Assembly (NCBI GenBank): GCA_913060815.1
Contig: CAJXSZ010000002.1
Location: 1 to 64,000 of the forward strand
Length of the DNA: 64,000 nt
Source: an uncultured Sulfitobacter sp.
Lineage (GTDB): Bacteria > Pseudomonadota > Alphaproteobacteria > Rhodobacterales > Rhodobacteraceae
Direction of reading: 5' to 3'
The number at the start of each line of letters is the position of its first letter. Within the stretch, counting starts at the first letter, position 1. The translations under genes and the position numbers were made by a program. The notes under the pieces are model-generated. The model worked only from the letters and a program-made list of their open reading frames with translations. It did no database searches and was not told the origin of the DNA. Below are positions 9,128 through 11,505 of the stretch, piece by piece.

Positions 9128-10555
9128 ATGCTGGAGAAACGCGACTTTTACATCAACGGCGCATGGACAGCCCCTGCTGCCGCCAATGACTTTGCGGTCA
9201 TCGACCCCTCTACGGAAGAGCAATGCGCCGTGATCTCGTTGGGCGACAAGGCCGACACGGATGCGGCCGTAGGCGCCGCGCGCGCCGCCTTTGACAGCTG
9301 GTCCCAGACCTCGCGCGAAGAGCGTACGGCGCTAATCCAGAAACTGGCCGAAATCTATGACGCCCGTCAGGAAGAAATGGCCCAGGCCATGTCTATGGAA
9401 ATGGGCGCGCCCATCATGCTCAGCCGCCAGCAGCAGGTCGGTGCAGGCACATGGCACATCGGCGGCTTCCTGAACGCGTTCAAGGACTTCAGCTTCGAGC
9501 GTGACTTCACCGCCACTGAGAAGACCCTGCTCGAGCCCATCGGCGTTTGCGCACTGATCACCCCTTGGAACTGGCCCATGAACCAGATCATCCTCAAAGT
9601 GATCCCCGCATTGGCCACGGGCAACACAGTTGTCCTGAAACCCTCCGAAATCGCGCCCCTGTCGGGTCTGCTCTTCGCCGAATTTGTGCATGAAGCTGGC
9701 TTCCCCGCAGGCGTGTTCAACCTCGTCAATGGTGACGGTGCAGGCGTAGGCAGCCAGCTCAGCGCGCACCCCGAGGTCGACATGGTCAGCTTCACAGGCT
9801 CCACCCGCGCTGGTATCGCCATTTCCAAGGCCGCCGCAGACACGCTCAAGCGCGTAAGCTTGGAACTGGGCGGCAAAGGTGCCAACATTATCTTCGAGGA
9901 CGCCGACCCTAAGGCCGCCAAACAAGGCGCCATCCGCTGCTTCCGCAACTCGGGCCAGTCGTGCAATGCACCTACCCGCATGCTCGTGCACAAATCCCGC
10001 TACGACGAAGCAGTGGCCTCCGCCTCCGAGGTCGCGACCAACACGCATGTCGGCCCTGCCTCCGAGGAAGGCAAACAGATCGGCCCCGTCGTCTCCGAGG
10101 CGCAATACAACAAGATCCAAGGCCTGATCGAGAAAGGCATGGCAGAGGCACGCCTCACCGCTGGTGGCCTTGGCCGCCCCGATGGCCTCAACCGCGGCTA
10201 CTACGTTAAACCCACGGTCTTTGCCGACGTCACCAACGACATGACAATTGCCCAAGAAGAAGTCTTTGGCCCCGTCCTGTCGATCATCCCCTTCGAGACC
10301 GAAGAGGAAGCGATCGCCATCGCCAATGACACGCCCTACGGCCTGACAAACTATATCCAGACTTCTGACGATGAAAAACGCCGCCGCGTGGCACGTCGTT
10401 TGCGCTCTGGGATGGTTGAAACCAACGGTCAGGGCTTTGCCCAAGGCTCCCCCTTCGGCGGATACAAACAGTCCGGGAATGGGCGCGAAGGCGGCGTGTT
10501 TGGCCTCGAAGAATTCCTCGAGATCAAGGCTGTGTCCGGCTGGGCTGCCGAGTAA
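9128..10555 (+). CDS. NAD(P)-dependent aldehyde dehydrogenase
   Basis: A 475-residue ALDH-superfamily enzyme oxidising an aldehyde to the acid. Visible are the cofactor segment PWNWPMNQIILKVIPALATG, catalytic base Glu246 (LELGGKGAN), nucleophile Cys279 (NSGQSC) and EEVFGPVLSIIPF. ATG 9128 is set by AAGGAG seven bases upstream. The substrate is not determined by sequence. Shared divergent promoter region with the peroxiredoxin gene; possible common role in detoxifying oxidation products is inference only. Confidence 0.94.
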   Translation: MLEKRDFYINGAWTAPAAANDFAVIDPSTEEQCAVISLGDKADTDAAVGAARAAFDSWSQTSREERTALIQKLAEIYDARQEEMAQAMSMEMGAPIMLSRQQQVGAGTWHIGGFLNAFKDFSFERDFTATEKTLLEPIGVCALITPWNWPMNQIILKVIPALATGNTVVLKPSEIAPLSGLLFAEFVHEAGFPAGVFNLVNGDGAGVGSQLSAHPEVDMVSFTGSTRAGIAISKAAADTLKRVSLELGGKGANIIFEDADPKAAKQGAIRCFRNSGQSCNAPTRMLVHKSRYDEAVASASEVATNTHVGPASEEGKQIGPVVSEAQYNKIQGLIEKGMAEARLTAGGLGRPDGLNRGYYVKPTVFADVTNDMTIAQEEVFGPVLSIIPFETEEEAIAIANDTPYGLTNYIQTSDDEKRRRVARRLRSGMVETNGQGFAQGSPFGGYKQSGNGREGGVFGLEEFLEIKAVSGWAAE

Positions 10556-10575
10556 CACTACGAAAAATTGCAAGG

Positions 10576-10604
10576 AAGGGGCTGCCTGCGGGTGGCCCTT
10601 TTTC
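10576..10604 (+). terminator. Probable terminator after the aldehyde dehydrogenase gene
   Basis: AAGGGGC and GCCCTTT can pair (one G-T wobble) across a 12-base loop, followed by a run of T (10599-10603) and CTTGTT, 20 bases after the stop. Confidence 0.6.
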
Positions 10605-10635
10605 TTGTTCAATAGCGCCTGCAAAAACTTCAGAT

Positions 10636-10827
10636 TTGAGTTTAAAGGGAAAAATGAAGAAGAAGTGCTCCTGATTTAACCCTAAGTCTATAAACATAAG
10701 GTCTGCTAAGACCGCGCGGATAGCTGGAGAGCGATCCCGCGTGAAAAGTGACGAAGCTCCGTCCTATGGTCAACGTAGGGCGGAGTGTTCACCAAAGCTA
10801 CTTCGTCATTTTTCCCTTTAAACTCAA
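10636..10827. repeat. 192-bp element with 27-bp terminal inverted repeats and three internal hairpins
   Basis: The left arm (10636-10662) and right arm (10801-10827) are inverted copies with 26 of 27 positions matching; the longest exact run is 22 bp and contains TTTAAAGGGAAAAATGA. Between the arms lie three hairpins: 10700-10713 (GGTCT/AGACC, 4-base loop), 10714-10740 (GCG-c-GGAT/ATCCCGC) and 10757-10785 (CTCCGTCCTA/TAGGGCGGAG, one wobble). An extra partial arm copy lies at 10743-10756. It fills most of the 302-base gap between two convergent genes. No gene is visible in it. It could be a MITE-like repeat, a structured RNA or a two-way terminator. No target-site duplication was seen. Confidence 0.75.
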
Positions 10828-10857: not shown

Positions 10858-11505
10858 TTAAAAGGGTGCCTTGCTGCGCACGCGGGTCATCTGACCCCCG
10901 TCGGGATGTTTAAACCTTAGCTCTTCAGAGTGTAGCATCAGCCGCGGGAATTCGGCTGCGGGTCCCTCAGCGTAAATCGGATCACCGAGGATCACATGGC
11001 CGAGGCTTAGCATATGCACGCGCAGCTGGTGGCTGCGGCCTGTGTGCGGTGACAGGCGCATGCGGGCGGTGCAGCCTTCATCACGAACCATTCGCCAGTC
11101 GGTTTGAGCAGGTTTACCCGTCGCATGACAGACCATCTGGCGCGGACGGTTCGGCCAATCGACGATGAGTGGCAAATCGATTGTTCCCGATTTTTCCGTC
11201 GGCACCCCCCAAACACGGGCGATGTATGTCTTCTTGGTCGTGCGCTTCTCGAACTGTTGGCTCAAGTTTCGCTGCGCATGGCGTGTCAGCGCGAAAATCA
11301 TCACGCCCGAGGTATCACGGTCCAGCCTGTGCACCAGCAGCGCATCGGGGAAGGCAACCTGTACGCGGGTCAGCAGGCAATCGGCCAACTCTTCACCCTT
11401 GCCTGGCACCGACAGTAGCCCCGCGGGCTTGTTCAGCACAATCACCTCGTGGTCGAGATGCAGGACCTCAAGCGGGTCCATCGGGGGAGAATACGTTGCG
11501 TCCAT
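10858..11505 (-). CDS. RluA-family pseudouridine synthase
   Basis: The enzyme isomerises uridine to pseudouridine in rRNA and/or tRNA. The 215-residue protein has the catalytic motif HRLDRDTSG (Asp62), VLNKPAGLLSVPG near the N-terminus, KTYIARVWG and HTGRSHQLRVHM. It lacks an S4 domain and resembles the short RluA type, which acts on 23S rRNA and tRNA; the target is not proven. ATG 11505 gives the usual start (MDATYSPPMDPLEVLH); an upstream ATG at 11565 gives an unlikely extension. Confidence 0.9.
   Translation of the reverse strand: MDATYSPPMDPLEVLHLDHEVIVLNKPAGLLSVPGKGEELADCLLTRVQVAFPDALLVHRLDRDTSGVMIFALTRHAQRNLSQQFEKRTTKKTYIARVWGVPTEKSGTIDLPLIVDWPNRPRQMVCHATGKPAQTDWRMVRDEGCTARMRLSPHTGRSHQLRVHMLSLGHVILGDPIYAEGPAAEFPRLMLHSEELRFKHPDGGQMTRVRSKAPF

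Follow-up and report, generated by a model that had tools for sequence, protein, structure and literature searches.

The window analysed here, the whole stretch of 64,000 nucleotides from an uncultured Sulfitobacter, contains a 192-bp element between two convergent genes, which the original prediction had read as coding for an aldehyde dehydrogenase (ALDH) and an RluA-type pseudouridine synthase; both assignments are borne out by Pfam (PF00171 and PF00849), the gene limits being those of a codon-usage script (table 1). The terminal inverted repeat that had been claimed for the element is real, since 26 of 27 end positions match between its arms, which are 93% complementary over 30 nt. Folding energy lies far under that of shuffled sequences on both strands and more so on the + strand (-88.6 kcal/mol, z -10.9) than on the - strand (-77.1 kcal/mol, z -7.8), with 0/200 shuffles as good in either orientation. 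Rfam 15 has no family within the element even at E<=10, its one weak match lying before the element at 10574-10610; elsewhere in the window it recognizes a 5_ureB_sRNA (RF02514; 4954-5243, - strand, 114 bits) and the singlet-oxygen resistance sRNA SorX (RF02784; 37716-37792, - strand, 56.8 bits).

Table 1. The element of the Sulfitobacter window and its two flanking genes
Feature	Position	Strand	Description
ALDH gene	9128..10555	+	Aldehyde dehydrogenase; flanking neighbour outside the element
Left arm A	10636..10665	+	Dispersed bipartite site, core GAGTTTAAAGGGAAAAATGAAG at 10638-10659
CtrA-like box	10676..10690	+	Degenerate TTNA-N7-TTNA: TTAA 10676-10679, TCTA 10687-10690
Originally predicted hairpin	10700..10713	+	Absent from the consensus structure; within the promoter-like stretch
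Predicted ncRNA body	10713..10826	+	H1-B-H2-A'; match to covariance model R1, 88.0 bits (this element is one of the 20 used to build R1)
Hairpin H1	10714..10742	+	GCGCGGATAGCTGGAGAGCGATCCCGCGT
Segment B	10743..10756	+	GAAAAGTGACGAAG; third word copy, differing by one A-to-G; pairing with A' possible
Hairpin H2	10757..10785	+	Enclosed by B:A'
Right arm A'	10798..10827	-	Dispersed site in inverted orientation; also the 3' portion of the predicted RNA
RluA-type gene	10858..11505	-	Pseudouridine synthase; flanking neighbour outside the element

Homologues of the element were found well beyond the source genome. BLAST across 60 genomes matched its interior in seven other Sulfitobacter species, all with the same architecture and adjoining ALDH and/or RluA, while core patterns located elements outside the genus in Mesobacterium (two), Thalassococcus, Roseibacterium and Rhodobacteraceae HLUCCO18. 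Among the carriers within the genus is S. mediterraneus DSM 12244. The 20 elements that were aligned, obtained by BLAST, core patterns, a motif pair (genome G359) and, for Thalassococcus and Roseibacterium, a pattern naming part of B, share one layout: arm A, a TTAA-N7-TTAA-like stretch, hairpin H1 with the core GCTGGAGAGC (one letter of which deviates in 1/20), segment B, hairpin H2 and arm A'. RNAalifold recovers A:A', H1 and H2 from these elements, with 21 of 39 pairs doubly changed. On their MAFFT alignment, B:A' has 98.6% of cells paired and 8/11 pairs doubly changed, the corresponding values for A:A' being 98.0% and 7/10, and pairing falls to 34-57% when the partner is shifted by 1-3 columns as a control. 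An alignment of 62 elements fitted to the covariance model has 96.0% of cells paired and double changes in 23 of 27 pairs (shuffles 0/500); helix B:A' reaches 99.1% there, a value to be read with the fact that R1 itself contains B:A', so that the homologues found with it lean towards this pair. Model R1, which spans H1-B-H2-A', matches at E<=5e-9 in 30/62 genomes of the genus, nearly always as one strong copy (second matches, at 1.5e-7 to 4.2e-7, occur in G012, G369 and G359), and at E<=1e-4 in 83/295 genomes of the family, a sample of about one per genus. Applied to 793 kb of fetched DNA, it returned the three known elements and otherwise doublets (E 0.005 or worse) and the reverse strand of an element. 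Compensatory changes are present in all four helices, H1, H2, B:A' and A:A', and the predicted structure H1-B-H2-A' is conserved with such changes across Rhodobacteraceae, usually in one copy per genome.

These comparisons bear on the interior hairpins that had been drawn for the element: two of the three, H1 and H2, are kept with covariation, while the third lies outside the conserved structure, in a stretch that is promoter-like in relatives. Among 57 non-redundant elements, T(T)AA is conserved at positions -37 and -26 relative to where the model begins, and TTNA-N7-TTNA occurs in 31 of them as against 1.25 expected from letter shuffles; in the source element the second half of the box is off consensus and no -10-like letters such as relatives have can be made out. 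According to an excerpt of PMC6180460, the full CtrA site of Caulobacter is TTAA(N7)TTAA, with activating sites near -35. The covariation in 62 homologues, together with the conserved promoter-like box upstream, argues for the structured RNA that had been one of the readings proposed for the element. If its transcription starts at the CtrA-like box, A would be outside the transcript and B:A' would form the RNA's own stem; by their predicted complementarity, B and A are both able to pair with A'.

Beyond what had been noticed earlier, the arms are copies of a dispersed word and a third copy of this word, segment B, lies inside the element. Segment B reproduces the second half of the arm word except for differences of one main kind. 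In the 20 aligned elements, at positions where A is the complement of A', all 22 differences of B are A-to-G; across the 82 elements that the model placed, 96 of the 102 differences of B from the A' complement are of the same kind, A-to-G and C-to-T having been scored more leniently when B was placed on A'. At least one A-to-G change is present in 80/82 elements, the exceptions being G375, which has no internal difference, and one element of G098, which has C-to-G; in G378 and G206 the arm has G at the usual position and the change in B is placed elsewhere. An A-to-G change in B leaves a G-U pair in the RNA while B differs from the site as DNA. Different words can occur within one genome: the two elements of Mesobacterium pallidum (loci L117 and L125) carry GCACAATGAAG and GCAAGATGAAG, each B agreeing with the word of its own element, and in G098 (L378 and L379) the two words also differ, one left arm matching the word of the other element.

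The dispersed word is bipartite, GAGTTTA-N3/4-GAAAAATGAAG in the source genome, its constant half being GAGTTTA or GAGTATT. Searching this genome by BLAST, we found one whole copy of the element and many matches to the arms alone; the 20-mer GAGTTTAAAGGGAAAAATGA has 18 matches there at <=3 mismatches, both arms counted, and its reversed-pattern control none. These copies are mostly single and mostly intergenic, often just past a stop codon or a terminator, and inspection of the sites led us to set aside the idea that the solo motif acts as a start codon. One degenerate solo motif (contig C8, about position 70395, L037) precedes an apparent 3' half of a tRNA, a setting like the border of an integrated island; ARAGORN finds no complete tRNA at this locus. 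The search of the arms and the whole element in this genome and in other Rhodobacteraceae thus yielded both further arm copies and conserved pairing, the two things whose joint absence would have reduced the original prediction to a chance palindrome or a private terminator. The observation is confirmed, and there is more to it than was described: the element is a predicted single-copy structured RNA gene, H1-B-H2-A', framed by inverted copies of the word, A and A'.

A degenerate pattern allowing 24 forms of the second half has matches in 33 of the 62 genomes of the genus, at least four in 27 and a maximum of 56, its reversed control giving a single match in a few genomes; seven genomes with the element have <=2 matches with this pattern. 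Among the matches listed, one form prevails in each genome: GCAAAATGAAG in 48/48 for G359 and in 15/15 for G360, whose own arms end in AAA, GCCAAATGAAG in 33/34 for G362 and in most for G028, and GCAAGATGAAG in 16/17 for G008. As a prediction test, the word was read off the element and sites were then sought with a broader degenerate pattern, arms included. The sites agreed with the predicted word in 43/44 cases for G010 (GAAAGATGAAG), 51/55 for G001 (GCAAAATGGAG), 13/13 for G375 (GAAGGGTGAAG), 6/7 for G370 (GAAAATTGAAG) and 11/15 for the source genome (GAAAAATGAAG). With the same broader pattern, the element-free genomes G014, G030, G002, G024 and G376 have 0 sites each, G006 and G025 have the element and no matching site, and G016, in which there is no strong element, has two unlike sites; in G374 all five sites read GCAAAATGAAG and both arms GCAAAATAAAG. 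Taking the genus as a whole, 28/30 genomes with the element have sites that match or else four or more sites, and 4/32 others have four or more (Fisher p 3.6e-11), counts that include the element arms and in which some element genomes are known by the number of their sites, not by the exact word. Genomes with 5-19 sites and no strong element are G028, G008, G017 and G016, and one or two sites are present in another three genomes that lack the element.

The pattern extends to other genera, where at least three matches occur in 10/80 genomes among the matches listed. Of the seven that have at least three listed sites and an extracted element, six agree (G100, G108, G118, G098, G123 and G128), G123 except in the last letters and G098 with B, not with its left arm; the three listed sites of the seventh, G090, do not match its own B. 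The remaining three genomes with at least three listed sites, G065, G096 and G136, have no hit of R1. Very different second halves are found within Rhodobacteraceae, for instance GACCAAAGAAG, ACCCAAAGAAG, AATAGATGAAG and GAAAATTGAAG, among which solo sites were counted for GAAAATTGAAG alone (the 6/7 of G370), and phage carriage of the core is not seen, an exact-pattern search in viral_contigs giving 0 matches. The second half of the word varies between genomes and, as far as sequence matching can tell, one genome mostly uses a single word for its solo sites, its arms and, with the A-to-G change, its B.

This situation creates a puzzle: the inner word of a structured RNA predicts tens of scattered sites per genome, and no described bacterial system was matched to it. 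A segment of the predicted RNA is complementary, but for one G-U, to DNA sites that lie beside a constant flank, and the explanation we would tentatively place first, at somewhat less than even chances, is that a small structured RNA gene acts as the address for dozens of short chromosomal DNA sites. A counterpoint has to be kept in mind, namely that part of the same data would follow from B:A' being a plain stem and the site word drifting on its own.

Among the alternatives, the one that survives best equates the sites with intergenic repeats of the REP/REPIN kind, the copies of which would be kept alike by rare copying or gene conversion, with the long element as master copy and its structure serving its own spread; the likeness of words would then reflect descent, not recognition. 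We consider this account rather unlikely, even if several aspects of the distribution of sites and elements lend it weight. Doublets of 60-104 bp do occur, and the element has evidently changed place: its 5' neighbour is GST-like in 51/82 elements and its 3' neighbour is an acyl-CoA dehydrogenase in 27/82 or a conserved 70-aa protein in 25/82 (GST and acyl-CoA dehydrogenase being identified by Pfam on the copies of the source genome), it adjoins ALDH in 13/82 and RluA in 13/82, and a solo or doublet remains at the GST junction in the source genome, G001 and G008. It also inverts. Between G362 and G022 the inversion is exactly between the arms, with collinear flanks (L163 9323-9504 vs L164 9915-10096), and in the ALDH/RluA group G011, G362, G374 and G378 are inverted with respect to the source element. 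Turnover of sites is indicated by the source genome and G010, which have no place in common. The enrichment of sites between convergent genes and their depletion between divergent ones, detailed below, would resemble selection against promoter damage.

Against such an origin by copying stands the comparison of G362 with G022, at 88% identity across 290 kb: G022 has each of the six places where the G362 contig carries the motif, with halves kept but for one letter and spacers that can drift, and within the range aligned it adds a single weak match with one mismatch. No recent mobility of solo sites is seen in this comparison. Moreover, the word differs at shared junctions. The source genome and G001 have both flanking genes in common for 10 of the 22 source places, nine solos and the element; the nine best solo pairs have equal orientation in intergenic surroundings that are apparently unrelated, and one source place has an additional G001 partner, weaker and reversed. 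The second letter of the nine shared source solos is A in seven, as in the source element, and the C of the G001 type in two. Other shared junctions number four for G010/G001, five for G001/G362 (with the element) and two for G010/G362, while the source genome and G362, for the part of the latter that was compared, share the element place only. Sites thus appear to change word in place, yet also to be gained and lost. Finally, the A-to-G rule in B is not explained by descent alone, and no Y1 transposase of the RAYT type tracks the element: PF01797 is present in 18/62 genomes of the genus and absent from the source genome, G012, G013, G371, G019, G022 and G362, which also led us to reject it as a partner of the RNA.

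The genomic context of the sites has been examined at 142 places in six genomes, gathered by motif patterns, which inflates the information inside blocks. Fifty-one of these places are convergent vs 53/515 motif-free intergenic controls (Fisher p 7e-12), and 7/142 are divergent vs 157/515 controls (p 6e-12), a distribution compatible with a role at gene ends, such as the two-way transcription barrier that had been among the original readings. This location invites a second alternative, that of a trans-acting antisense RNA pairing with motif-bearing transcripts, in the 3' UTRs of convergent or co-directional genes, with B restraining A' until a perfect target displaces it. Many sites do lie 10-100 nt past a stop codon, 82 of the 120 single sites have the A orientation when seen from the gene upstream and, judging from pair types, B:A' with its conserved G-U is expected to be weaker than A:A'. 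We nonetheless regard this possibility as improbable. Single motifs in co-directional contexts show no strand bias (44 vs 32, p 0.21), which argues for DNA, not transcripts, as the recognized target and against the solo motif as a transcript-sense signal; the spacer between the halves is variable; and predicted terminators already precede some such sites, terminator-like hairpins being found before 19/82 A-sense and 6/70 A'-sense gene ends, compared with 114/930 other gene ends (within 90 nt). A third alternative, a conventional DNA-binding protein of drifting specificity, with an RNA gene that merely lies between two sites and a B that follows A' to keep the stem, would suit the bipartite sites with one constant and one variable half, and, if A' is a DNA site, B would be obliged to follow it, but it is the least probable of all, for sites go with the RNA element (the 28/30 vs 4/32 given above) and turnover to very different halves would, in our judgement, be unusual with tens of sites.

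In the address reading that we prefer, the RNA would start near H1 from the CtrA-like promoter, leaving A untranscribed, and B:A' would form its own stem. A putative protein partner would carry the RNA and read the constant half of the site (GAGTTTA or GAGTATT), with B, or its partner strand A', reading the variable half by base pairing. DNA would in this way be bound at gene ends, perhaps as a barrier to transcription or a mark on the chromosome. The A-to-G change, which keeps a G-U pair, would set the RNA gene apart from a site and could spare it, and tolerance of G-U would allow sites to change stepwise after a change of the guide.

Candidates for the protein partner were sought without success so far. 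TnpB, Cas12f or TldR can be discarded as a general partner, PF07282 being present in 1/62 genomes of the genus and the source genome being without it. The nearest genes in the fetched flanks (mostly about 0.6-1.5 kb per side), which bear on a linked effector and on the reverse transcriptase expected beside a retron or DGR RNA, are ALDH, RluA, GST, acyl-CoA dehydrogenase, the 70-aa protein and some singletons without assignment, and no recognized linked effector is among them. The 70-aa protein (MPKRFRLTRRFPVAMTEDGYRRLK..., L343 992-1204 and homologues), which adjoins 25/82 elements, is strongly conserved and has no match in Pfam or NCBIfam; to our eyes it has a ribbon-helix-helix look. We rejected it too, for its gene belongs to a cluster that also holds acyl-CoA dehydrogenase, GST and thiolase genes, and in the source genome it is still found in this cluster, the element lying elsewhere.

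In broader terms, and with a little more reserve than for the address reading itself, the data may point to an undescribed system of RNA-guided DNA recognition in Rhodobacteraceae, outside CRISPR and TnpB/IscB: a programmable segment of five to six letters, dozens of bipartite sites at gene ends, a gene of its own marked as non-target by A-to-G (G-U), and a word that was reprogrammed repeatedly, the sites having followed suit and at least some of them having done so in place. If true, it would be a novel way of marking chromosomes by RNA address, one that is reprogrammed in nature; if the RNA does not direct recognition, the concerted and partly in-place change of sites would be a model for concerted evolution. 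Among the open-access matches listed in our literature search there was no description of the element or of the word.

How the element compares with known systems can be considered in conclusion. MITEs such as Correia elements are 100-200 bp long, with inverted terminal repeats and no gene, and the element resembles them in all these respects; it differs in having one strong copy per genome as a rule, the same junction in many species and covarying inner hairpins. The suggestion that it is MITE-like therefore holds in part: its arms consist of a repeated word, and the RNA element moved between the GST and the ALDH/RluA junctions, but solo sites are fixed between two close relatives, neither of the protein families searched (Y1 and TnpB-type) tracks the sites, and instead of multiple whole copies BLAST finds a single one in the source genome. 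REP/REPIN sequences are short intergenic singlets and inverted doublets that favour convergent gene ends, with one family per genome. The sites described here share the dispersed intergenic singlets and inverted doublets of REP/REPIN systems with RAYT (TnpA_REP), and depart from them in having no tracking Y1 transposase, a single-copy conserved RNA element and a word that varies together with B. TnpB-derived TldR transcription factors and CRISPR/OMEGA systems use a structured RNA in which a short variable segment matches DNA beside a constant half. The predicted RNA of the element likewise has a short variable segment that matches sites in sequence, although this segment sits between two hairpins and its putative targets are tens of chromosomal sites. 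Rhodobacterales also have order-restricted RNAs known from comparative genomics, such as HRC-8-4 and uORFC-8-2 (PMC8632094) and SAM/SAH (PMC2864571); as far as the excerpts of these two papers go, their contexts are cco operons, cysS and metK, unlike those in which the element resides.
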